This document shows positions 24,713 through 63,937 of a stretch of DNA of 64,000 bases, piece after piece. Numbering within the stretch: the stretch's first letter is position 1; every line of letters starts with the position of its first letter. The position numbers were made by a program, and so were the translations under genes. The notes under the pieces are model-generated. The model saw nothing but the letters and a program-made list of their open reading frames with translations, made no database searches and had not been told where the DNA came from. The stretch lies in the NCBI GenBank assembly GCA_963669155.1, contig OZ022590.1, positions 4,751,248-4,815,247 on the forward strand, read 5' to 3'. Source of the stretch: Arbacia lixula. Its lineage: Eukaryota > Echinodermata > Echinoidea > Arbacioida > Arbaciidae.

Positions 24713-24792
24713 AACATCGTTGTGTTGGATTTGGGTAATTTGCGTGTTTCCCAAGTTTTTTAAAAATCTGCTCTAATTGAGCAAAAAGACAG
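24713..24792 (+). repeat. Left terminal inverted repeat of the giant element
   Basis: It begins AACATCGTTGTGTTGGATTT and ends ACAG at 24792. Its reverse complement is at 63858-63937, with six mismatches in 80 and no gap. The exact outer base is chosen from where the two ends stop matching and from the short flanking GTGTA match. Confidence 0.9.
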
Positions 24793-24839
24793 AGTCGTTA
24801 ATAATGAGAGCTTTTTTGAATTTTCAAAAGCTAGGCTTG

Positions 24840-25260
24840 GCGCAATTCCATTTTGCTGTAATAACAGCAAAATCAGAAAGGTATTTTTATTGATATTTCG
24901 CTGTAATTACAGCGAAATTAGGAAGTAAGTGTCTTGACTTGATATTTTGCTGTAGTTACAGCGAAATTAGGGAGGTATCCTGACTTCATATTTTGCTGTA
25001 ATTACAGCAAAACAAGAAAAGTGCCTTGCCTTGATTTTTCGCTGTATGGGTGGGCATTTTTATATGATATTTCGCTGTAATTACAGCAAAATTGGGTTGA
25101 TGTCTCAACTTAATTTATGGCTCAGCGAAGAGTCAGAGGCACCTTAAGTTGAGATTTTTCTGTAGTTGGGGTGAAACATGATCACTGTCTTAACTTGACA
25201 TTTCGCCATAATTACAGCAAAACTTTGGAAGTGTCTTGCATCTAATTCAGCAAAGCACCA
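24840..25260 (+). repeat. Left subterminal array of palindromes
   Basis: About eight to nine copies of GCTGTAATTACAGC, flanked by TTT/TTTC and AAA, occur at 24855, 24900, 24953, 24995, 25042 (half), 25074, about 25164 (decayed) and about 25207. They lie about 40-55 bp apart and are separated by 'GTGTCTTGACTTGAT'-like spacers. Each could form a hairpin or bind a dimeric protein. The spacers read in reverse complement at the right end, so the two arrays are inverted relative to each other. Confidence 0.9.
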
Positions 25261-25436
25261 TAACCACAACAAATCCATGTGTTTTTCCTCGGCTACTTTA
25301 TAGAACTGTTATACAGCTTGCATTAGGGAGTCCTGTGTAGAAAGGCCACCTGTATTAAGACCACATTTCTATGCTCTTGAATAATATTTTAATTGAAACA
25401 CATATTCAGGCAAGCTATACATAGAGACCACCTGCT

Positions 25437-25677
25437 TACAGGGTTACTAAATAAGAAAAAAATTAGTTCCCACTAATCTATGTTAAATTATCCACTAAAA
25501 ACGAAGTTCACATTCGTTTGCCGCAATTTTGACTAAAATTTGAAAAAAGTACGCCTCCAGTGACGTCAGAGAAGTCAAAATGATACTTTATTGCGGCAAA
25601 CAAATATGAAATTCGTTTTTAGTGGATAATTTAACATAGATTAGTGGGAACTTATTTTTCTAATTTAGTAACCCTTT
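25437..25677. repeat. Fold-back MITE inside the left end
   Basis: AGGGTTACTAAATAAGAAAA with TTAGTTCCCACTAATCTATG on the left pairs with CATAGATTAGTGGGAACTTA and TTTAGTAACCCT on the right. The arms are about 90 bp. The centre carries a TGACGTCA octamer. No coding capacity. Confidence 0.9.
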
Positions 25678-25699
25678 AATAACTTCATTGCTGCATTTT

Positions 25700-27000
25700 T
25701 TTGTATACAGCAAGTGGTATAGGATCCACAATACAGATAACACACATTGTCCTACAAGCATCCATTATCCATCTATCAATCCATCAAACATCAAGCACAT
25801 ATCCAATCAGAGACATCAACATTTTCAAACATTTCAAAATACAGACATGTCATAAAATCAAACTCAATATCATTGTGAACGCTGTAAAATCAATGTGGAA
25901 GTGCAACAAAAATCATACAGTGTACCAATACATTGATAGAGTTGTTTTTAAGATGTATAACAAATGTATTTTCAAATGCGAAGTAATCATGTTGAACCAA
26001 AAACGATAACGCAGTGCAGACCTTACATATTTCTTTGATCCCACATGAAGAATATAAATATTTTGTTTAAAAAAAGACTTGTATTAAGATCAATACATGA
26101 AGCGGTACGTTACTTCTTTCTGTCAATAATATATACAACAAGAGACAAGGCATAGTGCCTACTTCCTCAACTATGAAGTAGAAGTTTAACATTATGACAC
26201 AACATCAGTCACAGTTGATGGGTGACCAAAATCCTATAAAAATATAAATGTATGGAACTTAGCAATCTTTAGCAAAAATGTCCGACTACTTGCTCTGTAC
26301 ATGATGTCTCATCTGATATACGTCCATTTTCACACTGCCTTGTCAGTGGCTTTCTATAGCCAACATAATGCATACAAAACAATAGTTACACTGATCATTT
26401 TTTAGGACAATTTGGTAATGAGTATTTGTTTTCAGAAATACATGTATTACATTGAAAAATCTCTACTCGAAGCAAACTTGGAAGCAATGAAGTAAATAAT
26501 TTAGTTATAAATTGCAATCACAACCATACACATTTTTTTTTTGTCAAGAGTATACCAGGATAGATGTACTCCTCAAAGAGCTAATTTGAAAGCTTGAAAT
26601 AGTTGAGCATCACACAATGCTAGAACAAATGCATGTAACAATTTAATTCCTCATATTAAAAAAGATCCAGAATTAATAACTCATCTGTATAGCTAAACAT
26701 ATTGGATAATATCTACAACGGAATATCTGGTAGGCACTAAGAAACGTTATTTATTGTGAAGCAGACATGAACTGATATATTTCACATTGTGCCAATATGT
26801 TTATTTGTGAGAATACAAGTAGCCCAAGTTAAAAATTTGTTGTGAAGAACAAAGGAACATCATTGTTCTGCACTTGATTGTTGAGTACTGAATATGTGAT
26901 ACATGTACGATACTTTCCTGATACCGTTAGGGCACAGATAGACTAGTTTTTAATGGGAATTGTTATAGAATAGAGCATCCTACTCCTGAGTGTGTACTCA
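25700..27000. other. Gene-free stretch between the left array and the inner palindrome cluster
   Basis: AT-rich DNA with no recognisable coding exon. It is downstream of the ParB-like gene. Confidence 0.5.
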
Positions 27001-27009
27001 ATATCAGAT

Positions 27010-27187
27010 AGGTTGATATTTTGCTGTAATTTCAGCGAAATTGGCAGGGGAGCCTTGGCTTGCTATTTTGCTGTAATTTCAGCGAAATTGGGTGGGCGTC
27101 TTAACTTCATATTTTACTGTAGTTATAGCGTAACTTGGTAGCTGTTTTAACTTAACATTTCGCCATAATTACAGCGAACCTTTTATT
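27010..27187 (-). repeat. Inner palindrome cluster next to the 3' end of the ParB-like gene
   Basis: Three to four copies of the same palindrome (GCTGTAATTTCAGC at about 27022 and 27070, decayed copies near 27117 and 27164) sit 0.13-0.3 kb past the stop codon. On the minus strand an AATAAA (27187-27182) overlaps the last unit and is a good candidate poly(A) signal for the ParB-like gene. Confidence 0.8.
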
Positions 27188-27318
27188 TCAGCAAATCATT
27201 ACAATTACAACCATTTAATTCTTCATATCAAAAAACATCAAAAATTCATAACTTTTCTGTAAAGCTTAACATATTTAGATATTATCTACTACTATCTACG
27301 CACCCAATATCAGAAACT

Positions 27319-28359
27319 CTACCCATCTAGTTTGGCACGCAATTCAGCGACCATCTCCTTGGGCATTGGTAGCTTCTCGTTCCACGTCACGATGCATTCC
27401 ACACGGGACCTTGCAATGGAATCGTGGCAGAATACACCGAGTCTCCATACTGTGGAGTACGTCCCTGCAAAAAATTCAAATGTAACCTTTCTTTTGGTGA
27501 TGCCTACAACTCTTGCAAGCCATGGCTCCCCCTCTTTGTAGGACTTTTGTGGGGGATTAATTATGATGTTGTCTCCAATGCGCAGGTCCTTCAGGCTGTG
27601 GTTTATTGTATATTCTGTAAGAATGGGCAAATAAGAGGGAAAATATACATTGAATCTACACACATTCAAGCTACATAATCTGAACATTAGATCAATTTAA
27701 TTTTATTGCATCAGTATAGTTCTCCAATAATGGCACTATGACGATATGTTACATTAAAGTAAGGATGAGCTTACACAAGAAAATATGTAACCCTCTAATA
27801 AAAGTTACTTTTGCAGTACATGTATACAGTTTGGGCTTAACATATCATGGATAATGTATGATCTAACAGATAATTTGTCAAAGCTCTTCTGTATGAGTGT
27901 CCATGTAGACTGTTGTTGTATTCTGATGCTTGCTTATTTCATTCAAGGGAAGCAGAGCATGCTTCCCGAGTTCATGAATGCCTATCACTATTAACACTTT
28001 CCAATCAACATCTTGACATTACACATTATCAACAAATAGCTGTTATTTCGGTATTTCTCCATAAAAAATGGCATGCCATAACTAATTGATTATGAACAGA
28101 TTGCATTTGGAAAGCTACATAGATTATGTTACAGATGACATATACACCAATTGTTGTGAAGGCCTTGCATTGCTAAGATGCGAAGGGGAAGGGGGGGGGG
28201 GAATAATAGTGTCTATGGTAAGAAAGAAAAGGAAAAGAGTTGGAGACCATACACATTTTCTATTTTAATACAAAGTAGTTACGGTTCCGTACCTGAGCAT
28301 TCACCAAGGTCACAAGCAGGAGTTGCATCTTCCACCTCCGGCAGAACACCTACAATGTG

Positions 28360-28398
<39 letters not shown>

Positions 28399-31300
28399 CA
28401 ATGGCCCTTTACTTCAATCTTTACATGCCATTTATTTATTTATTTCACCAATAATGTACACAAATCCCCACAAGCACTCTGCCAATCATCATCTCAACAT
28501 AACACATTATCAACAAATAGCTGTTATTTCGGTATTCCTCCATAAAAAATGGCATGCCATAACTAATTGATTATGAACAGATTGCATTTGGAAAGCTATG
28601 TACAGATGACACAATTGTTGTGGAGGCCGTGCATTGCATTGCTGAGATGCGAAGGGAAATGGGGGGGGGGGGGGGGGGGTTATAGTGTCCATGGTAAGAT
28701 AAAAAAAAAAAAAAAAGGAAAAAAGTTGATGACCATACACGTTTTCTATTTTAATACAAAGTAGTTCAGTAAAGTTCTTTACCTGAGCATTCACCAAGGT
28801 CACAAGCAGGAGTTGCATCTTCCACCTCCGGCAGAACACCTACAATGTGAAAAGAGAGAGAGAGAGAAAGAGAGCAATGACCCTTTACTTCAATCTTTAC
28901 ATGCCATTTATTTATTTATTTCACCAATAATGTACACAAATCCCCACAAGCACTCTGCCAATCATCATCTCAACATAACACATTATCAACAAATAGCTGT
29001 TATTTCGGTATTCCTCCATAAAAAATGGCATGCCATAACTAATTGATTATGAACAGATTGCATTTGGAAAGCTATGTACAGATGACACAATTGTTGTGGA
29101 GGCCGTGCATTGCATTGCTGAGATGCGAAGGGAAATGGGGGGGGGGGGGGGGGTTATAGTGTCCATGGTAAGATAAAAAAAAAAAAAAAAAAAAGGAAAA
29201 AAGTTGATTACCATACACGTTTTCTATTTTAATACAAAGTAGTTCGGTAAAGTTCTTTACCTGAGCATTCACCAATGTCACAAGCAGGAGTTGCCTCTTC
29301 CACCTCTGGCAGAACACCTACAATGTGAAAAGAGAGAGAGGAAGAGAGCAATTACCCTTTACTTCAATCTTAACATGCCATTTATGTATTATTTCACCAA
29401 TAATGTACACAAATCACATGACAAGCACTCTGCCTGGTACAGTAAGATTTAATGGAAAAGGACAGAAAATTGAAAAGGAGTGACCTAAATCAAGTCACAT
29501 GTGGAAAAACATTGAAAAACATTAATATTGATGAAAAGTGGGTTCTTTTTGTCAATGTGATGACCTTTTAACAGTATGATATCAATAGCCGTCACAATAA
29601 GAGGGCACCAATATATCATAATGCTGACCAGTCATAAACTTACCCAGGTCTTCTCTGAATTCATATGGATCACACTCGCTCTCTGCACATCCTTCCCCAT
29701 CTACAATATGAATTTCAAAACATTGGGAGTAAAGAAATAATGGGCAAATACATTGTTCATCTTAATCAATGCATGGAATTCAGTACCAAGGCTCTCAAGC
29801 ATACATTACATTGATTTAAATATACAATTTAATGATAAGCAATAAGATAAAATCAAGCATGAAATATTTGTTACATGATGTCACATTTATCTTAATTTAT
29901 GTGGGAATGGTGGTCACCTTCCTACATATACAGTATGTCGATTACTTTTTCGGATCAACATGCACTCCAATCATCAAATTGCTTAAAAATGTGACAAACT
30001 TCCGGCTTATTAATATTGTGTTTGTGCCCCATTACAAGCAAAATATTGACTGATCTCCAGTAAATACATAGTGGCTACCCACGCGTGTATACCAACCTTG
30101 ATAATTGTATATTCATACTTATCTTAGTTGATGTGATGTGACAATACTGAAATGGTGACAATCATTTTTTTTAAAGCTATCTAATAACTCATCATTACTC
30201 TTAACATACCTGCTGCATCAGAGATGGAAGATTCATCATCATGTTCTGCATGCTTTGAATCTATTAAAGTTTGAGAAAGTGATATATATGGATTTATTAT
30301 TAATTTGATGTGCTTTGTATAATTCACTGACTAAATAATTTGGGTTGTGTAATGTGTAGTACACTGGCACTTGTACATGATTACACTGATTAACACAACA
30401 ATGCAAAACTAAATTGAAATGAAATATTTTGGGCTCCGACGGCCAGATATTAAGTATTGTTCCTTTTGCATCAAAAAATGATCTTTCCACATGTATACAT
30501 ATATTTTTTAATGTTGAGTTGCCACATTACACGCTGATTCAATGGATATTCATTCTCTCTGAATGCTGATAGTAGCATGGCACGTGTAGGGCAGAAATGA
30601 ATGTTGTAACTATTTATTTTCTTCTATTTATATTTCTTCTATTAACTGTTAAAATTTATATTCAATATATCTGAAACCAGAGTGAAGTGTTTATTTTAGA
30701 AGTTTGTTTTATAACCATTCCCTATTCTTCCTTGTTGAGAATATCGGCCACGTTATCCAAACAGATTTACTGACGAGAAGTCTACCGTCTCATTTGCAAT
30801 GAGTTTGCATTTGTGTCATTCACGAAATATCAAATTTTTGTACCTCACTTCTGGATTGTTCTAGCAGGTTGTGATTGATGAGTTGGTCAACGCATTTAGT
30901 GCTTAATAACACCTTATATTAATACTTAATCATTTACTTTTCAATGATCTGGTACCTTCACACGATAGCTCTTATCGTCACAAGGTTTCGGGCAGGCAGT
31001 CTGAAAACACGACCAACAACATGATTTAATTAGCAAGCAAAAGAATACTAATGATTAAAATGTTAATCAAATACTGGTACACGTCTTACTTGAGTCATTA
31101 TCGTCAACATCCATGTCCTCTTCCTCATCACCTGATCCAGTCAATATGGACGACTCGCGACTCTCATATGGCATCTCCTTCTGGATGTAATCTGGCAGAT
31201 GCAGGTGCACAGTAAGAAATAAAAAAAATAAGAACACATAATTTTACATAACATGTGAATGACTGCACATTCTGACGAAGTGGCTTTGGATGATAATCAA

Positions 31301-34300
31301 TTTTACAGGAATATAGATAGCATAAGTATGAATAGAATGTTTGAAGAACATGTATATCATGCTATGTTCGAAAAATGAAAACGTTGATTGTTGCTTTAAG
31401 AAATACATCCATGATAACATCCATCTAAGGTATTAATATAAAGGAAAGAAAGAAATTTAGCTGAATAGATCCAGATAACTGAATTGACAATTGTGATGGA
31501 TACATGGATAGAAAGACAAACAGAAGATATGAGTAACATGTAATCTACAGTGTGATTTTTTCTAAAGCACACCAAACTTGACAAACGTTTTTAATATCAT
31601 CTATTGGGACAACTCGAGAGGCAAATGACACATTACAAGACAGATAAGCAATATCAAGTTAGCGGCGCATTCTTTACCCGAAAGAGCGCTGAACAGCTCC
31701 TCTGATGTCCACTGCCGGGGGTGGCCATTCAGCGTTATGACGACATCTTGCAGGAGAACCTTATCGCCACCTATGTCTATCTCTGCATGGTCTTCTGCAA
31801 TGGTCATCAGCACCTGCTGTTGATTCTGTATCGAAGAAAGATGTAATGCTTATCATAGGGAAAACAATCAGAAATAAAAACTTTGCACGTAAGTAGACCT
31901 ATGTGTTGTCAATAGTAGCTTTTTATCAGAAGTATTTTTTTCGAAAGTAAACACATTTCTTTCAATTCCGGATTGCCTTGTCACTAAAGCCATATCATAT
32001 GCTGCTCCAAAACAAAATCACACTGAAAAAGACAACATTCTATAAAATTTCAAGAAGCTTAAAGTGTAATATCATATATGTACAAACCTTTCTTTGCTCT
32101 TTCTTTTGTTTGGTCATGCCGCATGCCTTAGTGAATGCCTCGTGCCCTTCGCTGACAAACACTCGCAGACATCGGAATGTCTCTGCCTCATTCAGCTTTT
32201 GTAGGGGTTGAAATTTAAATGCCTTGAGCTTTGGGTGTTCAGCAAACAACTCTTCCACGATCTCAAAACATCTATTTGAGAGAGCTGCAACTTTAATCGC
32301 AAGACGTTTTGTGTCGATTTGGCTCTTCTGCAATTGAAAAAACAAATGCATAACAGTAAAAATGCTTTACAGACATGGTATACTGTACACTTCACTCTAA
32401 ATGACACAATTATGCATTATTTACCTCATATTGAAATTAAAATTACTGATGAGTATAGCTGCATCAAACATTCCTGTCTTCGTACTGCATCTTCAGCAAT
32501 CTTATTTGGGTACAGCATAGTAGAGCACACCACACATGAAGAAGGCCAACATTTTAATATACATGTATATTTCCAAAATTTGAAATACACAATCCAGTGA
32601 TGAACCATTAGTATCATTCATGATAACTGAAGAACCTTAATAAGAGAATACCAGAAAATCAAAGACATGTTATACATCCTCATTGAGCACTATTGAACGT
32701 ATGTATATAGAGATTTTTCTAAGAGTATATATATCTATATTTTTTTGCAAATAGTTACTTGATGATTATATTGGTAAATTGACCAACCTTGTATATCCCG
32801 AGGATGTTCTTGAGCCTGTTAATGTACGGAGATGTCACGCTTGGTGGCTCCTCAGTGGTAGGCGTGGCATTCATTGCATACAGCTCCCGTCGGAAAAGCT
32901 GGATCTCCTGCCAACTGCTCATCTTGAGCACTTTACAGGCATCATCATTTCTGGACACCCCAAGTGATAGTGCCTGTTCATCACTCAGCCCAGCATAAAT
33001 GACAACCATTCGAGTTTTGAAAATTGGGTTTTGGGTCGTTTGAAGGGCACTTTTTTGTGCAAGGACTGAATGATTGCCATCAATTACTTCAAGGGGACAG
33101 GTTTTAAGCATAGTGGGCCGAAAGGAAGCAGGAGTAGGGCAGATAGTTTTATCCAAAAGACCGACAACAGGGGGAGCAGTGTCTATGCACAAACTGCTCT
33201 TTTCAATCATTCTAGCAGTGAGAGTTTTCAAGAACTGTTCATCTTGAAATCTGACCAGTCTTGATTGATCCGGTGTAACCAACTGACCAAGCTCAACTGA
33301 AAAGATCCCTACATATCCCATTTTGATATTTTCCCGATGACTGTTTAATAACTGATGTTCTTCGTTATACTTGTGGTACCGGCCTCGTTTTTTCTGGGGG
33401 GGGCATGTCATTTTTGTCAGTTAAATTGGCTCGCCATTTTTGCACAAACTCCTTGGTTGATTGCACAGGTCCAATCACATGTTGTGTGAAAATAGTGAAT
33501 GCCTGAAAGTTCTGCAATGGAGCCAGCATGCTTTTTCCATTTGAAAATAGGAGCTGTATAACGGGTCACAAAGAAAACATAAGAACATGATTTATTTTTA
33601 TCTTTCTTGTTCTCAACATAATGATAATATTCATGCAATTAGCAGAAAAAAGGCAAAAGCAAAATATCGAAAAGTAAAACATGTACAACATTAAAATCTG
33701 AGGAAACTTTACTTGGAACTATTTAAAGCCAGTACAATAAGACATCATTCGACTATGATGCGGTTATTCCTCAGCATGTTTTTTGTTTCAATTATGCCTG
33801 GCCTGTTCTGCCTTCAAGAAATGTCAGCATAATATTTCATTGAAAAAAGAACAACAAAATTAAGTAGATACCATAAAAGAATCAATCGTTCTTAAATCGT
33901 TTTATTTTCTGTATATGAAGAGAAATTGAAGATGGATAAAATCCTTAAATAAGTCCACCTATTTCATATTTCATGATAGTTGATTTTGACTTAGCATTGT
34001 TAAAATTGCTACATGCAGGATATGAGACATGCCTGTACTTATGCTCAAGCTGTGAAAGTACAATCCAATCTGAAGTATTTAATGTATAATTTGTATAAGC
34101 CTCCAAGTAAGGCAAAGTGAATATATAATCGAACCTGGCCCATGAATAAAAAAAGGTGGACAAAGGCCAAAGAAAACGAGCGATTTGGAAACGAAAGCTT
34201 AATCAGAACATTGATAGGGTTAGGCTAATTGGGATATGAACAAACCGAAAACAAAAACCACAAAGAATTAGATTGGGACGAATGAATCTGTTGATAGTGA

Positions 34301-36068
34301 TGGAAAATGAGAGAATGTGAATAACAGAGTAAAAACAATAGGGAAAAGATTGAAAGAAGAGGTGCTAGCAAATTGACAGCATGAAAGCATGCCACCTCGT
34401 GCCTCAGCGATGCGTGCCCGGAGCGTTGGCAGAGGATACTGTAAATGTAGAGGACCACCAAAAGAATGAGTACGAAAGAAATAAGGAAAAGAAGCATTAA
34501 GCGGTGTTTTTTTTTTTCACTGCGAAATACCCCGCCACATGGCGCAGTCAAATTCGCCCAAAAAAAAAAACACTGTGCAACTTTCCTCGAGCTCGACGCT
34601 CGCGCTCTGTTGCCTCAGAAAAATCGGCTCTTTGTACTTTTGTCAGTGTCCAGCTAGTCTAGGTTCGAGTCGCAGTTTATCAGCCCGAATTTATACACAC
34701 CGCGCGAAACGGAACAAAGCGCAACTCACCAAAGCGACTGCGCGATCCCTGAGAATTGCCGGAAAAGGTTAGGCCAGAACGCGCGAATTGAATAAGTGGG
34801 ATATTGCAAAATAATAAAACCCACCATAGCGCATCTTTGTTGCAAAATAATTGATATCCGATGAAAGAGTAATAAAAGGAAAATAAAACAATGTGAACTT
34901 GAGAACGATGGACAGGGAAATTTAACAGAAAATGTATGCGTTACAGCTTTCTTTAGGACTTGTTCTTCGATGCTTGAACTTATTGCAAAATTACAGACCT
35001 GCAGGGTTGCGCTTCATCACGGAAAACATATACATGTATTAGAGCACTACGCAGTCTTTCACGCTAAGTCAAAATAAGGTTATAAAGATGACGATGAGAA
35101 ACTGACCTTCAGGCATGTTTCATCTGTATCGTCCAGATCAGCTACTACATCACAGCCATCAGTCAATTCTAAAGTTAAATTTAACAAAGAAACACGATCT
35201 TATTTTGCATCACCGAACATTTTACTGGCCGAACGTACCGTCCGACCCCGTCGTAGTCTTAATTTTAGAGATTTTAGTTCCCGTTTGTTTATATCCGAAC
35301 CACTCCCTTGCACTATCCGTAACGTAATCCGTTATCACTGGGCCTTGGCGTGAAACTAAAATAATCTTCTTTCCCAGTCGAGTTTATCTATGTCCCAGGA
35401 GGCCACGGCCTCTCGGGGAGATCAAAAAGGATAGATCTACAGATTATCCATACTGAGATAAAAAAAAAAAAAAATACGAGTTGAATGAGCAAGAAATGTT
35501 CAACAATTTGGAGCACAGAAAGAAGCCTATTTACCAATACATAATCACGCTCCTTCCTGCCTTTCCCCGTAAGTTGGTTAGTTATCCGACAGAATACAAC
35601 CCCATGGTGTTATCGAGAGTTTTACTATTATCCAAATAGCAGTTATTAGTACACAATCTGTTGAGGACAAACGCTTTTAATTGGTAAATGTTACCACCAA
35701 AATGTGGAAAACTGTAGATATTACAACGATTGGATCTAGATTACAAGTTCCTTCCATTATCCAAAGTAAATTCAACTACATTTTCAAATCAGGGGTAGAG
35801 CGATTGAAGTATTCAAAGTGGCCGCTGATGCGTTCGGTGGCGATGAAAAAAGCAGAGTACCAAATTAATGAAATAAGAGGTAAGCACAGATACAGACACA
35901 TACATTGAGAACCTAAGGAATCTTACCTGGTTTATACTCGGCTAGATAAGTTGTTTCTTTGGCTCTGATTATCACGACACGACACTTGTCCGAGTCTGGA
36001 ACACCTCGTAGACTCCACCATTCATTAGATGGAGCGAGTTCAAGTTTCGGAATATCGCGAGCAGCCAT
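27319..36068 (-). CDS. ParB/sulfiredoxin-like protein with acidic linker and C-terminal beta-barrel-like domain
   Basis: Minus-strand exons are 36068-35927, 35168-35107, 33553-32788, 32327-32088, 31825-31678, 31191-31090, 30260-30210, 29700-29644, 29317-29261, 28839-28783, 28349-28293 and 27614-27319. All junctions are GT-AG and the frames join to about 677 residues. One exception: exon 3 shifts frame at an 8-base C run (plus strand 33396-33403); seven bases would keep it open. The start ATG opens MAARDIPKLELAPSNEWWSL. Near residues 220-260 PLEVIDGNHSVLAQKSA followed by VVIYAGLSDEQALSLGVSRN looks like a ParB/sulfiredoxin fold (the DGNH strand-turn binds nucleotide or phosphate in that fold). 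Residues about 450-580 are acidic and made from 51-57-nt exons, all in phase 1. The last exon (IGDNIIINPP, PWLARVVGITKRKVTFEFF) resembles a small SH3/BAH-type barrel. Function is unknown; a DNA-binding partner for transposition is inferred. Confidence 0.7.
27985..29435 (-). repeat. Tandem triplication (about 480-bp unit) that copies a 57-nt exon
   Basis: Three units repeat in order a 57-nt exon, a (GA)n tract, a 'GGCATGCCATAACTAATTGA' block and a poly-G tract. The marker ACTAATTGAT falls at 28081, 28562 and 29038. Units 2 and 3 are nearly identical; unit 1 has diverged slightly. Each exon copy keeps its splice sites and is phase 1-1, so each adds 19 residues (VLPEVE-ATPACD-GECS with one split Gly) without shifting frame. 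The (GA)n tract lies on the acceptor side and reads as the polypyrimidine tract on the minus strand. Confidence 0.95.
33396..33403 (-). other. Homopolymer frame break in exon 3 of the ParB-like gene
   Basis: Upstream of this run the exon reads in frame as far as NLTDKNDMPP. Downstream, the long open frame (KKRGRYHKYNEE onward) is shifted by one base. Removing one C joins the two without a stop. Sequencing or assembly error is the simplest reading; a real inactivating mutation or slippage is also possible. Confidence 0.75.
34649..34720. repeat. Partial copy of the 54289 fold-back arm
   Basis: AGCTAGTCTAGGTTCGAGTC, then TTTATCAGCCCGAATTTATA resembles the left arm of the element at 54289-54443. 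It lies in the intron between exons 2 and 3 of the ParB-like gene. Confidence 0.5.
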
Positions 36069-43480: not shown

Positions 43481-44715
43481 TAATGCGTCTACAGTGTAAA
43501 GATTTAATCGGGGAATATTGTTACGGTAAGGTGAAAAAGGCGCTCAAAATCATATCAAGTTGCAGTCCGGAAATGTTCTTTTCAAAGAAGTACATGTAAC
43601 TTCAAAAACGGCCCTAGCCATGCCCATACTAGTAATTCCATCTACTGATCTGGAAAAGTATCAAATTCCGTGTTCCCTTGTCCTCATTAACTACATAACA
43701 AGCACTTCGTAACAAATATACCTATTCATCAACGAAAGCTGAAATGTATGCATGTTTAGGAATATCTACTTTATGTCCTCTTATAAAGTCCAGGTGGCCA
43801 TGACGCAATTCATGCAGTAAGAGTAGCTGCAAGTAATGCATATTAGGTGGCGGAACCAAACCTCGTTCAAATGGGTATACATTTCTTAAAACATCCTTGT
43901 ATCATCATATCTTGCTGATATTCTGATACCCCGCTCCCGACGTGGGGTGGGGCGTTAAACCTATAAGATTTGAGAAGAGGAAGGAGAACGAAGATCAGTC
44001 AGTGTTGGTGTGGTCATCAGCATAGAACGGTCTTGACAACATATTACCAGTTTTTACCGATTTTACATACAAAATAAGTAATGCGACTATTTTCTTGCAT
44101 TTACACCCTTTATTCTGAGCAGATTTACTGCTTTGCTATGTTTACACGCTTCCACTTACATACCACAATGTAAATCTAACTATAATTCCAACGACTCCTC
44201 AACGTATAAAGTATATTACTCGTAACTTAATTAATTCTATGTTCTACATCTGTACATATTTCGTATATCAGTAATGATAAACCAAAATGACACATATCTA
44301 CTTGATAAAAGAGTGACAATTCAATATTTCAACGGAGCAACTAGCCTTATCAGAAGTGGTGTCAATATAACACTAATCTTTATCCTTTTTTAACTCTGTA
44401 TTTCAAACTGTAATGTCTAATAATCAAATAACATGTTGAGAGTCTAAACACAACAAAAAAAGTAAGACCCCCCCCCCCCCCCCCCCCCCCAAGCCAAATA
44501 GCATAACTTTTTATGAAAGAGGTTTTGGCAAAATAATTTGGCAGGATTGTTTCTTATCTTATTGACTAACTTATGTGTGAAAATCACATTAATCTAGTTA
44601 GTCATGCATGAGTGGGCAAATCTTAAAGGCGAAAATGTCACTTTTCAAAAGTCACAAGGGTAATTGTTCATGCCGTTTTAGCAATACATTTTGGCATTTT
44701 CTGTACGATCTTTAA

Positions 44716-45231
44716 AGATTGTCCGTCCCTTTTGCAAGCTTAAAATTTGAAATCGTCTATCACGATCGTAAATTGAAGAAAGTGTGATTCAAGACCATTT
44801 CTAAGAATATAGCATGTTGAAGCTTTCTGTATATGTAAAAAATTCAGCCGTTAAATTTCAAACCGACTTTTTTCGTACCACGAAAAAAGTATTAGCCTTT
44901 GTTACATTATCTATGTGGTTATTATGCGTGTGTGAAATCCTAATTTTATGAGTAACTACCAAACTTTGGGGATGATTCCTTCCATAGAACAATTTTTTCA
45001 TAATGCGTTTTATAATTTAATAAACAGATTAATCAATAAAGCAGATATTTCAACACAAACTGCTAAGAGCCTGAGGTAAAGACTATTAATCAGACGTTGT
45101 TTTCGTGCATTATTTGAATTTTACACTACGTATCAGTTTCAAATTGTGAATATAGAGCTTGCTAACACTTCTCTATGTTTTGCCAATGTTTCGATGGTTT
45201 TGTGGTGATCTGAAAAAGGGACTGGCTGTCT
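44716..45231 (+). repeat. Element 'Y', copy 1 (516 bp, TTAA-type)
   Basis: Ends are AGATTGTCCGTCCCTTTT and the complement of AGACAGCCAGTCCCTTTT, so there are short imperfect terminal repeats. TTAA flanks both sides (44712-44715 and 45232-45235). A near-identical copy is at 49704-50223. No coding capacity. Confidence 0.85.
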
Positions 45232-45604
45232 TTAAAGGGCATATACTGTCATGGGAAGTCAAAAAGCCTTCAAAAGATGATCGTGAGCAATCTTCTTACC
45301 AATGGTCATTAATTAATGTATTGTCCATTTCAGAAACTTCATAAAAGATGATTTGCCCTCAAACGATCCACATTTGGAGTAATTAGTGATTTAATCACAA
45401 ATCCGCAAAATGTTCGGCCCGAACATTTTAATTTAATTTGATTTAATCACTAATTACTCTAAATGTGGATCGTTTGAGGGCAAATCACTTTCAGCAAGTT
45501 TCTAAAATGAACAATACATGAACCTAAGATCATTGGCAAGATGATTACTCACGATCACCTTTTGAAGGCTTTTTTGTCTTCCCAGAACAGCATGTTCTCT
45601 TTAA
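45232..45604. repeat. Fold-back MITE 'Z', copy 2, inserted beside element Y
   Basis: TTAA at 45232-45235 and 45601-45604. Inside is the same long palindrome as at 19128-19503 (AGGGCATATACTG, TTTGCCCTCAAACGATCCAC, centre TGTTCGGCCCGAACA). It sits in the right-hand TTAA of element Y. Confidence 0.95.
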
Positions 45605-46064
45605 AGTGTTTTCACTCAACCATGACACGAAAATGACTTCTCATGATTATATAACATGTTATGTTACGTCTTTGTCAAAATATCCAGAGTTTTATTTTTT
45701 CACCAAAATAAAGGGTTTTTAAAAGTTTCAAACTCAAGAGGGATGAGTATTTTTTATTTGATGCTCATTCAACCAGAACAATGGGTTAAGTGTCGGGATA
45801 GGTGTTAGTGCTTCGAGAGATGGATGATAAACAATGAAAGGACATATATCATTCACCAGAATTAGAATTCATCAAAAATTAATGTGACAGAATCCAAAAA
45901 TTACCCTTGTGACTTTTGAAAAGTGGCATTTTTGCCTTTAAAATACGCTCACTCTTGCATGACTAATTGGATTAATGTGATGATCACACAGAAGTTGGTC
46001 AATAAGATATGCTATTTTGCTTTAAAGGGGGGGGGGGGGGGCTTACTTTTTTTGTTGCATTTAT

Positions 46065-49228: not shown

Positions 49229-49263
<35 letters not shown>

Positions 49264-49703
49264 TGGGACTGCAATTTTCCTCTTATCTTTCTATATATGT
49301 GTGTGTGTGTGCTTTTTTTTTTTTTTTTTATCTTACCACCTATTTGTTTCCCCATCCCCCCTTCTCAAAGGAGAGCTTCATAAGATGCACCTACATAGAC
49401 AAAATTAGAGTCACTTTATTTCATTTTTAGCTTTGAGTTGAGAAGAGAGTCTAGTTTGGGTTGAGAGCTAGAGTTCGACTCTTAGCTAGGTTGTTACACT
49501 ATGTTACGCCTTCGAAATAATCATCGGAATGACTGAAGAAATGTAGTTCTGAAACCACATTTACATATCTGTCAACATCGTTGTAGTATGTACGTCTACG
49601 TCTCAAATGAAAAACACGTAACAATAACAATTATTGTATGAGCACCTAAACAGCACAGACCATGTCTATTCATTGCATTGTACCATACGCTACCTCCATT
49701 TGA
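48176..49703. other. Gene-free stretch
   Basis: The phrase 'CTGGAGAGGACA' or 'AAGAGAGGACAC' recurs at about 48216, 48388 and 48554. A (CT)n microsatellite lies at 49230-49259, followed by (GT)n and poly-T. No gene is seen. Confidence 0.5.
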
Positions 49704-50223
49704 AGATTGTCCGTCCCTTTTGCAAGCTTAAAATTTGAAATCGTCTATCACGATCGGAAATTGAAGAAAGTGTGATTCAAGACCATTTCTAAGAATATAG
49801 CATGTTGAATCTTTCTCTATATGTAAAAAATTTCAGCCGTTAAATTTCAAACCGACTTTTTTCGTACCACGAAAAAAGTATTAGTCTTTGTTACAGTATC
49901 TATGTGGTTATTATGCGTGTGTGAAATCCTAATTTTATGAGTAACTACCAAACTTTGGAGATGATTCCTTCCATAGAACAATGTTTTTCATAATGCGTTT
50001 CATAATTTAATAACCAGATTAATCAATAAAGCAGATATTTCAACACAAACTGCTAAGAGCCTGAGGTAAAGACTATTAATCAGACGTTGTTTACGTGCAT
50101 TATTTGAATTTTACACTACGTATCAGTTTCAAATTGTGAATATAGAGCTTGCTAACACTTCTCTATATGTTTGGCCACTGTTTCGATGGTTTTGTGGTGA
50201 TCTGAAAAAGGGACTGGCTGTCT
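49704..50223 (+). repeat. Element 'Y', copy 2 (about 520 bp)
   Basis: It matches 44716-45231 over its whole length with few differences. It is followed directly by TTAA (50224-50227) with no MITE Z, so it preserves the empty right end. The left flank is TTGA, one base from TTAA. Confidence 0.9.
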
Positions 50224-50227
50224 TTAA

Positions 50228-54033: not shown

Positions 54034-54288
54034 TATGCTTCGTGCTGACTCCAGTTCTAACACCTTCCTGGTCAGTGCAAGGCATCATAATTAGTCTTTT
54101 CTAGGCGTACGGGATACAAAAGTACTGCTCAGAGGCTACAAGGCGTGAGGGACAACCCACATCCACAATGTCTTGTCAAAGGGCTAGAATAAACTACTCG
54201 TCATGACGACTCCACCTTCCTGCTTACACCATGCAGGGAACACCTCCCTGCACCATGTGTAAACCAAACTGTCCGGCAGCGTGATTCA

Positions 54289-54443: not shown

Positions 54444-54619
54444 CATACGTTCGTGGCCTAATCTCTTTAGCGCGTGCCAAACACGGGGGTGTGCATGTTG
54501 AGCAGCGTCGTAGGAAATAGAAGCGGTCGATCGACCATCGAGCTTGATGGTACTGGGCCCCGAGTACTGGGCGTGCTATGTTTGCGCTAGGTTCCCAAAA
54601 TCTTGTACATATTGTCGGC

Positions 54620-55200: not shown

Positions 55201-55557
55201 TAACATGCCATTCTCAATATATATTGAGAACGTGAAGATTATGAAAGTAAAGTATCTATTTTCACTGGTATATATGGACGAAATATTATGACAATGTGTT
55301 TTTTTTTGAGGGGGGGGGGGGTGGGTAGGTGATATATCAGCCAATAACCGCGGTTGCATTTTTCTAATGTGATCATTTACAAACCTTGGATACTTGTTAT
55401 GTGGTTATCAGAGTGGTGATGCTGATGAGATTTTTCTAATAATGTGTAAATTTCGCTTCAACATTCATGATATGTACTAAAAATCAACTGCTTTTCTTAC
55501 CTAAATTGTGTCTTTCAAATCACTTTTTTTAATAGGTTGGGATCTTGTTAAACAGTC

Positions 55558-56395
55558 ATGGAGAAAAAAACTCGGAAAGAAAATTATCTTGATCCTGCAA
55601 GAATAGAAGGTGATCTGAGCATGAAATGTCATTGTGGAAATGGCTGCTTACGCAAAATGGACGTTCAAACTGCGTTGATGTGGAGGACACGACTGTTTGA
55701 GGTGAAAGAGGGGAGTGGCAGACAGGTCAAGATAATTGAACTGATGCAGAGCATGGCACTTCAGACAGACTGCAGACAGTTCGTCATAAACGGAGAACTT
55801 ATCTGCAGGTATTCTGTGCAGTCACATTACATTGTTTATAATTTCGTACAACGTAAAAAGTCAAAGGTCAATGACATTTAATAAAAAGCACATACCCTTA
55901 TGCCATGTCTGTACATAGGATAATAAGTACATCATGACATATCTGAGTACAAGTGATCTGAAAACATCGAAGGTAAACTTATGTGAATTGAATGTATTTA
56001 AAGTGCAAATTTTGCACTTCTAGTTTATTGAGGAAATGACACTGCTCTCTTAAGTTCATTTTGACAAAGTGTATATCTACTCGAAAGTATACATGTGCAC
56101 TCACTAAGATTATAAAATACATTTAACTTTTGTTCTGCATGCTCATTTTATGACCAAAAATTGCAAGATCAATTCATATTTCAATATCAATTGATTACAG
56201 CTTGATTTGTAATGAATGTGTCATCTCTCTATTACTTTTATTTCAGACATGCTTGGTGCCAATTCATGAAGATTTCGAGGAATTCGTTCTATCGTGCTCT
56301 TGCGCTTCTGAAAAATGGGAGAGTTTTTAATCCATGCTCAACATTTGTCAGTGGAAGAGACACCAACGGTAAGACAATTTTTATGAATAGGAAAA

Positions 56396-56428
<33 letters not shown>

Positions 56429-59400
56429 AATAATACCTGTAATATGGCATTATACATGTACTTAGTAATGGCAGTACACTATGTGTTGCTGGATGCATTG
56501 AGCACCCTTTGACATTTGATGTTGCGAGAAGAAAGTAAAATGGAGCTCTTCTCACACAGTAATTTGCATCAAAATTTCCAGAGGAGTTTGGGAGAAGTCA
56601 TACTTGTTAAGAGCATTATCTCCTTATGCATATGCTGTTTGATTATCTAATTTACTTCATGGTGAGAAACAACAAAGAGGTGTATTCTCTGAAAATAACA
56701 CTGCACGCTGTTTAGTAATAGTAATTCTCCATCAAGTAAGCCTACATGCTGATCCTGTACAATGTTTATGAGCTAACATTTTTTTTTTATATGTACATAA
56801 GGTATGGCAGCAATTGGGTTCATGGAGCAGTACATCAAGAGAATGGGAGACACATGCCCACAAAGCGGACGGATATTCCTGCCCTGTTGTACTGGGATAG
56901 GAGACATCTACCACAAATTCTTGGCATCGAGAGACAACATTAGCAAGATTTCCAGGTCGCATTTTGGAAGGATTTGGCACAAACATTTCATGCACGTCTC
57001 CTTCCCTAAGGTATGTTTTGAATTGTACAAAAATTAAAAAATATTTGAGGGGAGTGAGTTGTACATTATTAATATCAACATTCATGCTACATCTGCTATA
57101 TAATACAGGTTACATATAAAAGCATTTTGATATACTTATTTCCAGTTAATCATCACATCTGTCAATTTATGTTTGCTTATCATAGCACCATGTGTGTAAA
57201 TGAAACAGAGGCAGGGGTATTTGTATATGTCTGTATGCATATATTCATTCATTTTTATGTCCTTCCACAGATAACGAGGATGACAAAGTGCAATATCTGT
57301 ATTCTGGCGAAAGAGGTCATTTCCAAGACGTCTGACCCTCTAACCAGAGAAAATCTTGTAAGGGAACGAGACGAACACCTGCAGCGACAGTGGTATGTAA
57401 GATATATTCAAATGTTAGATATATTCACGATTTATAAGTAAATCATGAGGAATTACAAGTAGCCACTGTTTCATAAGATTTATCTTGATTGTTAGCTGGA
57501 TTTTGGTTGAATGCCAAGACATTTTATTCTTATTCAGGATTGAACATCTTCATATGTGTACATGACAATTCAGGAAATACAAAATGATGTACATGTACTG
57601 GGGGAAAATACATGACTTTCAGATACCTTGCACAGATTCTCTTATTTACGGGTTGTTCATGCTCGTTCTTGGATTTATATAGGTTGGAGCGGAAATTGTA
57701 TTATGAGAGGAGAGAAGAGGCGGTGCAGGATCAAAAGGGGAAGCTGAGCATAATTATGGATGGGATGGATCAGGCCAAAACGTATCTCCCTCATTTCAAA
57801 GGATGGTCAGCTCCTAAGGTAAGAGTACTAAAGTCCACATCTGGATACATTTGCAATACAAAAATTCAGATAATGAGGTTGATGAGCAAATGAATAAAGA
57901 GATTTTCTCATTCAGCTTCGAAAACAAACGTGTTGATCAGGATAATTGTAATTGTAGGATCCCTGGAGGCTAGGGAAGAAGCTATTTACCCTGTTAAAAT
58001 GTTACTGATTAGTGTGACATAAATTCATCAGTGATGTTAAATTCCTTATGGAAGACAGGTTAATTCTGACAAATACACATTTCTGCACAAAACAACAAAT
58101 CTGTTGGAAATATACATACAGAATATTACTGTGTTCATTGCGATTTCTTGTACTCCTTTGTCTGAAGGACTGTGACAAATACAGGCTTCAACCACATATT
58201 GAGGGTTGTCTGGTCCACGGGCGATCCTTCCATGCTTACGTGTCACTAGAAGATGGCCATGACTCCAGCATGGTCATTAATTGCCTCCTTGCTACATTGT
58301 GCCAAGTGAGTGATGATGGCGTACTTCCCCCGACCCTCTACATTCAGCTGGACAACTGCTGGAGGGAGAACAAGAACCGCTACTTCATTGGGTTCATGGC
58401 GTTCCTGGTTGCTGCACACATATTCAAGGAGGTAAACGAGCATGCAGACCAATATATCTATTCATGTCAGTATACTTTTAAAGAAATTTGAATCTGCATT
58501 TTGTGGTTTGTACATTTTTAAAAATATTTTTGCAACAATTGTTATCAATACCATACAACATTTATAATGGAGTGCCAGGTGAAAACGATCGGTATGCGGA
58601 TTATAGAATATACAAGCTATTGGCTGCTCACATATTACTATTTTTGCTAATGATGGTAAAGAGGATATGTATAGTGTGTGAGTGACTTTCTGACTTTAAT
58701 CAATTGCAGTCAGAGACCTCAATCAAATGCATGCATTGAGCTGTCTGTATTTGATTGCAACAGATTGCAGTCAGCAACCTCAATTGCTATAAACTTGATC
58801 TCAGGTTCTCATATATCTGTCCCATATTCTTACTAAGTTCTTTAACAAAAAAAAATTATTACATACCGGTACTTTTTTTACAGGTCCAGATGTCATTTTT
58901 GATGGTGGGTCATACTCATGAAGACATTGACCAGCGTTTCAGCTGCATTTCTCGTGCCCTCAAGCGTGAAAGTGCCAGGACCCTGCCAGAACTGTTGACA
59001 GTCATTGAAACCTCCATGGCAAACACTACAAGCAGAGCAACCAGACTTGGCAGAGTGTTTGACATCAAATCATGGTTGGAGCCCTTCCTTGCCCCACTCA
59101 GTCAGCATTCAGCACAGCATGCATTCAGGTAATTCATTTTATGAATCAGGATGTAAGAAGAAAGCTAGTCACATGTATTCATAGGTTGATTTCATTTTGG
59201 GGGCTTATAATTTATATAAGCTGGTTATAGAGAAAAGAACGAGGCAAAAGAGTTTTGTAGGACATATAATTAGAAACGATGGTCTTGAAAATTGAGCATT
59301 GACAGGAAAGATAGAGGGAAAGAGGGGGAAGGAAGGAAACAAATGAATTGGATGACCAGTCTGAATGCATGGATTGCAAAAGGAAGTGGAACTGATTCAA

Positions 59401-61728
59401 ACAGCTAGGAACAGAGATTTGTGACATGCCATGATCGCCTACGTCTCCGGATATGGCACTTATAGGGATAGATACTTTCTTTCACTGTTGCTTCACTGCA
59501 GAAATAAATACATGTATTGGACAAGGGTCTCCAGCTTTGCTGTTATCAATGTGTAAGTCCTTGAAAAGAATAGATTTTAACAAATGTAACTAACCGTTTG
59601 AATAAATGAAGTATATACTAGTTCTTAGGGTTACAGATGAGACATGTCCATTTCTTGTGCTGTGTTTATGTTGTTTTGTACAAGCATGTACAATGTATTT
59701 GATGCCTTGTGCATGAAATGCAAAATGAAGATGGACCTTTTTAAATTGTCTTTGATACTTATGAAAAGGAAGTGGAGGTGAGTAACATCAAGTCATATTA
59801 TTTAAAAGATTAGTGGAGAATCAGTTTCCATACCAAACCATTTTCCTCTAAGTCAGTGTATGTCAAATCACTTTGATGTTTGATTTCACGCTTATTTTTC
59901 AGGTTGACCTGGTCACCAGGAAGCCAGAAACATGTGCTGCTACATTATAAGCAGTGGACCCAAGATAAGGAGTGGCTACCAGCCACTTATGATCAGCAGC
60001 ACAAAGTCTTCATCTCTGATGTGAATGGGAGCATGAAGCTGCCACCTGGGATGCCAGCCTTGAGGGAGCCCACATACGAGCGGCAGAATCTAGACATGGT
60101 GCAGCGCACTATAAACTCTGGAGCTCACCATCTAGATTCTGACCAACACGACTGGTGGAGCTCATTCTTCAACAACCCAACAGATGGCATCCCAGACAGT
60201 GTTTGGGCTCCTGACATCTTGAAGCAGCACGCAGCTGACATCAGTGAGGATGAGGAGATGGCAGTGGTTGCTGGTCCAACTGTGCTAACGCCTTTTCTTG
60301 AGAGGGAACGGCGTGCTCCCCATGTAAGTACTCAAATTGTTATTGAGGATTCATGCAGGAATGTACAAACTTTCTGTTTGCTTTATGTCAGAATTCAGAC
60401 AGATACAGTTGAACTCATATATGTATGTTAAAGATTTCACCAATGGTTACCCAAAATATAATGGAATAGATGAATTGATTAACAATACCAGCACATTGAC
60501 GCATCCCTAAAAGAGCGTACATGTACCATCTGAAACCCATGGAACATTTTGCTGTATGATAAATAAGGAAGCCTTGTAATTTAAATCAAACACATATTTC
60601 CCTTACGACACCAGCACACCATAAGATATTCGTAATAATAATGACCTCCCATACGTATTCAGTGAAATACATTGTAAAATACTTGCTCTACTGATAACAA
60701 TGTGGTGTACTTTTAATTTCAACTTGTACATACTATCCAACCAGTTTATGATGAGGCAGAGAACAGGATATCAGATTTGTAACAATGTGTCTCAACTGTT
60801 TCTGTGGGGAGGAGCATTTGGAACATGATGTTTGTATACTTTGCTCAGAGGAGATGCTGTGATGGTAATGTTTAGTTTACAAATTCATTGTTTAGATTAA
60901 CACATTGAGATTCTTGTTATTCTTTGATCCCCTCTCAATGTACGAGAAATGATCCTTGATTATCACCAGAGTAAAGCTATGACTAAACAAGCAAAATTCA
61001 ATTTAAAACATATTGAGTTTGCAGAACAGTGAAAGAAATGTTAACCAGTTCTTGTGTCCATTGTTTTTTCATGAGGTACGGTCAGACAGTGGTAAGATTT
61101 TTAATCCTAACAGATGTGTGATCTACACTTCCTTGTTTAAACCCAAATTTCAGAGAAGTATCATTTTTGTTGTCATGACTGTGCATGTAAGGCCTAGTAA
61201 CCTATTAACCCTGCCTCTTTAAATGAGTATCATGGTTGAGTGCTTACGTAGGTGAGAAATTTACATCAGTGAGTGTAGCCACACTGCCCAATATTTTGGG
61301 TATTTTGATAAATGATTTGTGATAATTGCGCAATCAAAGCATCAGACTACCGAAAACAGACGACTCAAAATATCAACAAACATAAGCGGAGCAATGGCAT
61401 AATAATACTGATGTATTTCTTTTTTTGCTCCGCTTTCATTCTTGTGCAGATCAACAAGAGAGGCCAGTCAGCACAAGGAAATGAGCAACACATAACACCG
61501 GGAAAGATGGTGCTCACTGCCGTGAAGAAAGTGGGTTGTGTTGTTGGGGTCAATGGTGAGAATATCACCATTGACCTGTACAATGGAAAGAAAAATACAT
61601 TATGGAGGCCTGATGTTAGAGCAAATGGTAACCCCAGGCAAGTCACCATTGCAAAAGAAAGTGTGTGCCAAGTTTTTGACTTGACACCTGGTTTGAGATT
61701 GCCTGGGGTTATCAAACATCTAATTTAG
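55558..61728 (+). CDS. GHTHEDID-family protein (DUF7869-like), candidate transposase, nine exons
   Basis: Exons are 55558-55808, 56247-56368, 56802-57010, 57271-57392, 57683-57818, 58168-58431, 58884-59128, 59903-60323 and 61450-61728. All are GT-AG and total 2049 nt (682 residues plus stop). The ATG follows an acceptor-like TTTTTAATAG at 55535, so a 5' non-coding exon is likely. Residues 24-30 have C-x-C-x3-C and 201-204 CNIC, probable zinc ligands. The core has IIMDGMDQAK (Asp261/264), LYIQLDNCWRENKN (Asp342) and FLMVGHTHEDIDQ (His378, His380, Glu381, Asp382/384). Spacing and strand-like contexts fit an RNase H-type metal site. This family is multicopy in many invertebrate genomes and I believe is catalogued as DUF7869; its role is not established. 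The C-terminal about 80 residues (PGKMVLTAV, VGCVVGVNGENITIDLYNGKKNTLWR) look like a small barrel and resemble the end of the ParB-like protein. Position inside the inverted repeats makes it the best transposase candidate. Confidence 0.85.
56399..56426. repeat. (GA)n microsatellite in intron 2
   Basis: Uninterrupted GA dinucleotides just after exon 2 of the GHTHEDID-family gene. Confidence 0.95.
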
Positions 61729-63290
61729 CTGCATCATTCTCTATACCACCTGATTGTCCCTATTTGCATATCACTTGCATAAAGAAACATGCAATATTCG
61801 CTATCTGTACAGTAGCGTCCAATCCAATACATCTAATACAACCTCTGAGTAATGTAAATGTTAAAGTTAAACGAGTCTCAAATGTTCTCAAAATCCTAAC
61901 AACAATAGCCAGCTCCAGTGGAAATACAACTGCATTCATGAAAGTAAAGTTTTGCTGAAACAATTGATACTATTTCTGCACACTGTGCAACATATGTGCA
62001 GACTTCAAATAAATAAATTTCTGTTCATCATTTAAAACTTAATACATGTATCATAATGTCCAGTGTAATAAAGTAATGGTGTTAGTCACAACCAGTTTGT
62101 TATCATGAATGTCCATTCTTTCTAGGTGTGTGTTGATAATTGTTCATGGATGGAAAAGATAAATCATGCATTATATAAATCATTATAAATCGTATATAAA
62201 TCATTATGTAAAACCAGTATCATAAGTCCATCTAAAAAGGAAGGAGTAAAACAGTAGGGTTTAGAGTGAGCCTTGCGGCTCTGGATATTGTTCATAAACA
62301 TTGTGTTGCTTTTCATATATGTCCTTGACCACCTTAATTGATAGTGAATCATGTATGTGGCAAGATTGTAAATAGATTAACTATTACTGTCCATTTACTT
62401 GTAGTAGTTATGAAACTATATGAAGTGACAAAATACTTGTACTAAAAATGACTCGTACTAAATGCAATACCACACTATGTTCCTGTTTTAGCATATTGGG
62501 ATTTCATTCCCCCAAATCCTAATCAAATTTGAAAAATCATAAGCTTTGTTTTCAGACACTTGTTAACGACAAGAATTTTCAGTTATAAACATCAGATTTC
62601 AACATCTGATTCAAAATAACTGAGAGTGTGATTTAGCAAAAGAAGGGGTCACCAGTCGTGCATAATGTCGTTCATATCTTAGGAACAGCTTGGTGAAACA
62701 CCACCCAGGATACATAATACATGTACTTGTTTTATCATACGCAATTTTCATTTTTTTTCCTTCTAAATGTGATATGAGTAATACATATCACTATTTTTTT
62801 TTTCTGTCCCAAATCTGATTTGAAAAAAAGGTAACTTCAATAGAGAACTAAACATGAACGCTACCTTTGTATGTACATGTATATCTTTTTGTTGTCATTA
62901 TTTAAAGAAAAAATGGTGCCTTAAAATTTTTGTCTTCCTTTGTTATTTTTGCCATTGTTTTTGTCTGTTGTTGATGTTGCTGCTGTTGTTGTTGTTGTGT
63001 GTGTGTTTGTTTGTTTGTGTGTTGTGTGTGTGCGTGCGTGTGTGTGTTTGGGGGAGGGGGTGGGATATCCCATGATATGGACATGCAACAGTCAGTGAGA
63101 ATGTGTTCCCAAACATGATTCTAAACTATTAAAGTAATGTTGATAATGTTTACAATTTGCTTTTATGACACACTACATGTATGTTGTATCACATGTGTTA
63201 TGTTGCATCACCCATGCAACAAGACAGAAATTTGCTTCATTATTCTGCAAGATATTACATAATATTACACTAAAGTATAAAATCAAGAGA
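61729..63290. other. 3' region of the GHTHEDID-family gene
   Basis: AATAAA words at about 62008-62016 and 62066 are candidate poly(A) signals. A (TTG)n/(GT)n run lies at 62965-63050. No further gene is seen. Confidence 0.6.
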
Positions 63291-63299
63291 CCTTCCCAG

Positions 63300-63790
63300 T
63301 TTCGCTGTATAATTCAATAAAAGACACATGCCCACTTATACTGTAAATACAGCGAAATTTCAATAAGACACATGTCCACGTTCGCTGTAGTTAAAGCTGA
63401 ATATCGATGAAACACACCGAAACAGTTTCACTGCATGTAATTACAGCAAAATATCAACTCAAGACACCAGCCCAGTTTTCCTGTAATTACAGCGAAATAC
63501 CAAGACACCAGCCCAGTTTTGCTGTAATTACAGTGAAATACCAAGACACCAGCCCAGTTTTGCTGTAATTACAGTGAAATACCAAGACACCAGCCCAGTT
63601 TTGCTGTAATTACAGCGAAATACCAAGACACCAACCCAGTTTTGCTGTAATAACAGCAAAATACCAAGACACCTGCCCAGTTTTGCTGTAATTACAGCGA
63701 AATACCAAGATACCTGCCCAGTTTCGCTGTAATTGCAGCAAAATATCAAGTGAAAATACACATCGATTTTTGCTAAATTTACAGCGAAAT
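63300..63790 (-). repeat. Right subterminal array of palindromes
   Basis: About ten copies of GCTGTAATTACAGC (variants AGTG, AATAACAGC, AATTGCAGC) lie at about 63437, 63481, 63522, 63563, 63603, 63643, 63685, 63727 and 63770, with decayed copies from 63300. The inner copies have a regular 41-42-bp period with the spacer ACCAAGACACCAGCCCAG. The spacers are the complement of those at 24840-25260. Confidence 0.95.
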
Positions 63791-63857
63791 ATCATCCAAT
63801 GGAAATGCACGATCCTTAACTTTTGAAAATGTAGAAAAATTAAAATTACCGATGGAT

Positions 63858-63937
63858 CTGTATTTTAGCTCGGTTAGAGCAGATTTTTAAAAAACTTGGG
63901 AAACGCGCAAATTACCCAAATCCAACACAACAATGTT
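63858..63937 (-). repeat. Right terminal inverted repeat of the giant element
   Basis: It ends CCAACACAACAATGTT. The reverse complement aligns without gaps to 24713-24792 with six mismatches in 80. Sequence outside (63938 on) does not match the left flank apart from the short GTGTA. Confidence 0.9.

Follow-up and report, generated by a model that had tools for sequence, protein, structure and literature searches.

A 39-kb unit of the Arbacia lixula genome as a probable giant cut-and-paste transposon carrying a DUF7869 gene

What kind of DNA is bounded by inverted repeats 39.2 kb apart and carries two spliced genes that point outward, one towards each boundary? Such a block occupies positions 24713-63937 of the stretch analysed here (the window: 64 kb of Arbacia lixula DNA, C15:4751248-4815247, OZ022590.1), which belongs to an assembly of 607 Mb in 590 contigs. 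A first-pass annotation had described it as a DNA transposon of 39 kb, assigned it to an undescribed class and called its genes host-like. As we argue below, the block is very probably one copy of a giant cut-and-paste DNA transposon in which the right-hand gene (gene B) would encode the transposase and the left-hand gene (gene A) a companion. The description as a 39-kb DNA transposon is borne out by a sibling copy of the whole unit, by 4-bp duplications associated with this type of end and by the empty site of a 48.7-kb copy; the other two labels fare less well.

The limits of the element are well marked. Counted by eye, the two 80-bp cores of the terminal inverted repeats (TIRs; Table 1) agree at 74/80 positions, so that the annotated figure of 74 is correct and the accompanying word "exact" is not, since six positions differ. 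Likeness extends beyond the core at 72% over about 410 bp (24713-25105 versus 63544-63937, E 5e-55). The end points are sharp: outside AACAT[C/T]GTTGTG the flanks differ, by eye, among 30 loci. Palindrome arrays had been reported just inside both ends, and this is where we find them: TTTYGCTGTAATTACAGCRAAA has 18 matches with at most three mismatches in the 64-kb window, nine at either end, with none elsewhere in the window and 0.00 in shuffled sequence. The two genes do face outward, gene A lying on the minus strand at the left and gene B on the plus strand at the right.

Table 1. Features of the 39.2-kb element (window coordinates) and places of giant copies and giant ends in the assembly
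Feature	Position	Strand	Remarks
Left terminal inverted repeat, 80-bp core	24713..24792	+	weaker similarity to 25105
Left subterminal palindrome arrays	24851..27179	.	9 matches to TTTYGCTGTAATTACAGCRAAA, at most 3 mismatches
Gene A, companion gene	27319..36068	-	runs about 36068 to 27319; model incomplete
Gene A exon pieces, first three	36068-35927, about 33429-32788, 32327-32088	-
Gene A exon pieces, rest	31825-31678, 31191-31090, about 29700-29591, about 27615-27319	-
Tandem repeat, 476-bp unit, 3 copies	28001..29434	.	inside gene A span
Gene B, putative transposase	55558..61728	+	682 aa, 9 exons; spliced model
Gene B exons 1-5	55558-55808, 56247-56368, 56802-57010, 57271-57392, 57683-57818	+
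Gene B exons 6-9	58168-58431, 58884-59128, 59903-60323, 61450-61728	+
DUF7869 match	58174..59132	+	exons 6 and 7; C15:4809421-4809684, 4810119-4810379
Right subterminal palindrome array	63336..63789	.	9 matches to TTTYGCTGTAATTACAGCRAAA, 41-bp period in core
Right terminal inverted repeat, 80-bp core	63858..63937	-	weaker similarity from 63544
Giant copy, window	C15, 24713-63937 of window		39.2 kb
Giant copy, second on C15	C15:4841790-4880584		38.8 kb; ends and both exons
Giant copy	C21:8626839-8666103		39.3 kb; end-to-end alignment
Giant copy	C12:10359503-10408220		48.7 kb; ends and both exons
Giant left ends without assembled partner, n=3	C17, two on C4
Giant right ends without assembled partner, n=2	contigs C96, C102

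It had been proposed that the 80-bp repeat be sought at other loci where it flanks both gene families, and this assembly contains such loci on C21, on C12 and at a second place on C15. Two TIR searches, each scoring the best 40 of 99 candidates, together gave at least 50 distinct end places. Note that our counts of ends are lower bounds because only up to 40 of the 99 candidates were scored in either search. The outcomes named beforehand as refuting, ends that occur mostly as separate short elements or that inserted independently of each other, are not borne out: 28 of these at least 50 ends form 14 pairs lying 13.9-48.7 kb apart. The remaining listed ends comprise five giant ends whose partner is missing from the assembly, and 17 ends of a shorter group that are unpaired among the matches listed. 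Among those same matches, four giants are complete, measuring 38.8-48.7 kb. The window copy and the C21 giant are colinear over their full length (38,965 bp aligned, 99.25% identity). They are separated by 146 substitutions and 47 gap events; the first 14 kb account for 17 of the substitutions and the remainder for 129. The C12 copy has about 9.4 kb more than the window copy between the gene B exon and the right end, and this extra sequence is probably a nested insertion. The shorter group consists of at least ten pairs, 13.9-23.9 kb long, with ends like those of the window element. One of its members (C3:24529470-24543473, 14 kb) is an imperfect palindrome over its whole length, with arm pieces 72-92% alike, and has an end of 302-305 bp in common with the window element, 84-85% alike; no gene was evident in this one short copy when its frames were read by eye.

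These ends are accompanied by short duplications of the flanking sequence. The 4 bp on either side agree exactly in 10/14 paired elements (nine short, one giant) versus 7/182 mismatched pairings, six of the latter being due to TACT and CTAC sites that recur and the seventh to the left end of the window copy combined with the right end of the second C15 copy. As for the other four pairs, one short element agrees at 3/4 bp and three giants have no duplication. Longer duplications do not occur among the 14 paired elements, either at 5 bp (0/14) or at 6 bp (0/14), and the duplicated sequences are varied (GCAT, AGGG, TACC, TACT, TAGT, TGCA, AACA, CTAC). Only the C12 copy, then, has its own 4-bp duplication among the four complete giants (GCAT), the flanks of the others reading taac/catg on C21, gtaa/gtgt in the window and tttc/gtaa at the other C15 locus.

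For the C12 copy there is also an empty site. When its flanks are joined with one GCAT removed, seven copies of a dispersed repeat match them at 96-98%, unbroken over bases 2-138 (one of the alignments was inspected); in these seven copies no more than 28 bases of the right flank follow directly beyond the join. Such an uninterrupted match means that the 48.7-kb element inserted into a repeat that was already there. Bases 136-220 of the right flank have their match about 4-6 kb away within the same repeats, which implies that the host repeat was otherwise rearranged near the insertion. A site lacking the element, which had been named as a further check, is thus at hand for the 48.7-kb copy, and for the joined outer flanks of the C15 giants the genome holds no full-length counterpart. 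At the left end of the second C15 giant the flanking repeat has four other copies, and the two that were read run past the insertion point. We can set aside the idea that the copies carry along donor flanks, given that the outer flanks of 13 giant ends (1.5 kb each, one containing 200 N) share nothing at E 1e-10.

Do the genes belong to the element, or were they picked up from the host? The 202-aa gene A exon is found at seven places in the genome (9/9 candidates scored), which are the seven left ends of this type, and the 88-aa gene B exon at six (14/14 candidates scored), which are the six right ends; all copies of either exon are 100% identical. At the sensitivity of these exon searches, this assembly contains no free-standing copy of gene A or gene B. 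Since the exons occur only at ends of this type (seven left, six right), both genes appear to be genes of the element. Host-gene capture was rejected for the same confinement of both exons to the element in this assembly, and the label "host-like" goes with it, the domain of gene B being present in a second TIR element as well.

Gene B has GT-AG borders at 8/8 introns, in the window and C21 copies alike, and its spliced model matches a single Pfam family, DUF7869 (E 1.3e-68). Acidic motifs can be picked out by eye, QLDNC and THEDID inside DUF7869 and IIMDG upstream in exon 5. Searches for relatives among solved structures (best E 0.76) and among viral contigs returned none. Between the window and C21 copies nine codons differ, seven silently and two with a change of residue, none of them creating a stop, and this pattern suggests constraint, on small numbers.

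Gene A is less clear-cut. Its middle exons join well and its first and last introns gave no clear junctions; compared with C21, one base is inserted at 33396 in the window copy, and the exon frame measures 221 aa here versus 269 aa in six other copies. The description of two complete, intron-rich genes therefore holds for gene B, and for gene A in the window copy completeness is doubtful because of the insertion and the shortened frame, along with the two end introns. No significant Pfam family, no NCBIfam family and no relative among solved structures was found for gene A; its best match in PHROGs, at E 0.088, is to a family of unknown function. A ParB-like identity, which VIDGNHSVLAQKSA suggests by eye, was dropped, with no support from Pfam, NCBIfam, PHROGs or solved structures.

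Having established that gene B travels with the right ends, we can ask where else its domain occurs. The genome has 28 DUF7869 matches (46/46 candidates scored), 12 of which are the two exons of six giant copies. Five others make up a second, compact family of 6.2 kb with inverted ends (GAGACCCGCTCTGCC and GTGACCGGCTCT), two copies of which are about 99% alike over the 6.2 kb. Its 4-bp flanks agree in 5/5 copies, four times as ATAT and once as AAAT; were it not for the AAAT copy, ATAT could be the end of the element, and with it we can say that the flanking 4 bp come from the target. The compact-family protein, pieced together by eye, matches gene B at E 1e-12 with 20% identity and in the alignment retains the DNC of QLDNC. 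The termini of the giant and compact families are unlike in sequence. As DUF7869 is thus carried by two TIR families with unlike ends and duplications of equal length, a transposase is the simplest reading, and gene B is most likely just that. Judging from motifs read by eye, the DUF7869 core is probably RNase-H-like with D-D-D catalytic residues. We found no mention of DUF7869 in the literature searched, and its Pfam entry gives the function as unknown. A third DUF7869 family, at C16:5916149, C20:4503574 and C11:22540885 (open frames of 508, 508 and 463 aa), is possibly another transposon.

Although these observations favour a giant transposon, the flanks of the giants invite other accounts. 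Recombination or assembly between copies is likely to be behind the missing duplications of some giants. A broader version holds that all giants without a duplication, the window copy included, are chimeras in which the halves of two insertions were joined by recombination or by the assembly, the family itself being real; we put this at not quite an even chance. It fits with the absence of an own duplication in 3/4 giants, with the gtaa shared by the left flank of the window copy and the right flank of the other C15 copy, and with the acat that flanks both the right end on C96 and the left ends on C17 and at one place on C4. Overall, four matches occur in 42 left-right giant pairings, C12 with itself counted. 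A run of 200 N, either an assembly gap or withheld sequence, starts 63 bp beyond the window copy and, like the five giant ends that lack an assembled partner, makes the assembly uncertain here; the uneven spread of substitutions relative to C21 also fits a composite. If copies had merely been shuffled, however, the left and right flank sets should be equal, and they still differ after gcat, gtaa and one acat have been paired: the lefts tttc, taac, agaa and acat are left facing the rights gtgt, catg and atat. Moreover, the empty copies at the left end of the second C15 giant read tttc and then TCATATTC, which adjoins 0/6 right ends. Alternatively, both C15 giants may have moved together with the intervening 26.6 kb as a single macrotransposon of 104.6 kb that used the outermost left and right ends. 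Its outer flanks share GTAA and the inner ones, gtgt and tttc, are unlike one another and unlike the outer flank of the same copy; a macrotransposon made by two nearby elements, of up to 28 kb, has been described for maize Ac (PMC9910405). A 4-bp match is weak evidence, however, a 200-N run lies between the two C15 copies, and a full-length empty site for the outer-flank join is missing from the genome; we regard this account as rather unlikely.

Other alternatives concern the enzyme or the class of element. Gene B might not be the transposase, in which case another enzyme would move the giant and genes A and B would be cargo. The role of gene B is predicted here from sequence, and the giant and compact DUF7869 termini do differ. 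Gene B is, however, found solely beside these ends, most of the few changes in it are silent, and duplications of the same length accompany a compact DUF7869 element with TIRs; we consider the cargo scenario very unlikely. Polinton/Maverick elements are large, have terminal inverted repeats and make 6-bp duplications. Size and terminal repeats would suit an assignment of the present element to them or to some other virus-like giant, but its duplications are 4 bp long (a 6-bp duplication is seen in 0/14 pairs), the product of gene B is a DUF7869 protein, no polymerase B or integrase family came up when genes A and B were compared with Pfam, and no polymerase or capsid was noticed when frames across the interior (36.3-55.5 kb) were read by eye. 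We find an element of that kind highly improbable here.

In the reading that we prefer, that of a giant cut-and-paste transposon with gene B as its transposase, the gene B product, presumed to be an active enzyme, most likely recognises both the terminal repeats and the inner palindrome arrays by binding to them; it would then excise the whole unit and reinsert it by cutting the target with a stagger that yields the 4-bp duplications. The gene A protein, carried only by this element, may help to bind the ends or the target. The 13.9-23.9-kb elements with matching termini are probably non-autonomous passengers of the gene B enzyme.

How does such an element relate to known ones? Kolobok elements duplicate TTAA; with TTAA in 0/10 exact duplications, we discounted both piggyBac and Kolobok. 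KolobokP is described as an animal element with a DDD/E transposase and a second protein, a homing endonuclease (PMC9587614); the present element likewise pairs a putative transposase with a second protein in an animal genome, but gene A has no recognised domain and duplications of TTAA are absent. Teratorn, a piggyBac element fused with a herpesvirus and 180 kb long (PMC6431247; PMC10175614), is likewise a DNA element of very large size from an animal, whereas we noticed no gene of viral kind in ours, and its duplications differ from TTAA. Sola elements are characterised in PMC10741241 by a DDD transposase, by duplications of 4 bp and by TIRs that measure 11-1124 bp; most are 2-9 kb long and some exceed 15 kb. 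Some Sola2 elements are reported to have ATAT, AAAT or ATTT duplications (PMC3627910). The end type of the giant has 4-bp duplications and TIRs within that range (74/80; 72% over about 410 bp), and the ATAT and AAAT flanks of the compact DUF7869 family are two of the three Sola2 duplications. In contrast to Sola, the giants span 38.8-48.7 kb, the duplications of their end type are not restricted to A and T, and a second gene is present. By its features, compared with Sola by description only, the element comes closest to a giant variant near the Sola superfamily, relative to which its size and second gene are unusual; "undescribed class" was too strong a term, in that both the 4-bp duplications and the D-D-D appearance suggest a known superfamily. 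A bolder proposal would make the DUF7869 elements a superfamily of their own apart from Sola, with one lineage grown giant through a gene A that handles very long DNA and with neighbouring copies carrying 100-kb stretches, host DNA included, as macrotransposons. We hold it to be unlikely.

Titles and abstract openings, from a literature in which subscription journals and preprints fell mostly outside, showed no such giant element. According to a 2019 review, DNA transposition becomes significantly less efficient once the cargo exceeds 6 kb, and eukaryotic elements may be kept lean by natural barriers, even though artificial constructs measuring 100-200 kb have been made to move (PMC6431247). 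An element of 39-49 kb, with two compared copies that differ at 146 aligned positions and an apparently intact gene B, would make a natural size limit testable. If gene B is the transposase, a function for DUF7869 would be suggested.

To the left of the element, at window positions 1178-4738 on the plus strand, is a spliced-looking, transposase-like gene with weak matches, below curated cut-offs, to DDE_Tnp_ISL3 (E 0.0015) and MULE (E 0.051). A dispersed repeat of about 525 bp is present twice inside the giant (44711-45235 and 49699-50227, 97% alike) and again, at 91-96%, at L087:6211-6622, where it adjoins the compact element on C17, and at L031:707-1221. Finally, a palindromic, MITE-like repeat of about 380 bp lies both outside the giant (19126-19505) and inside it (45230-45607), the two copies being about 82% alike.
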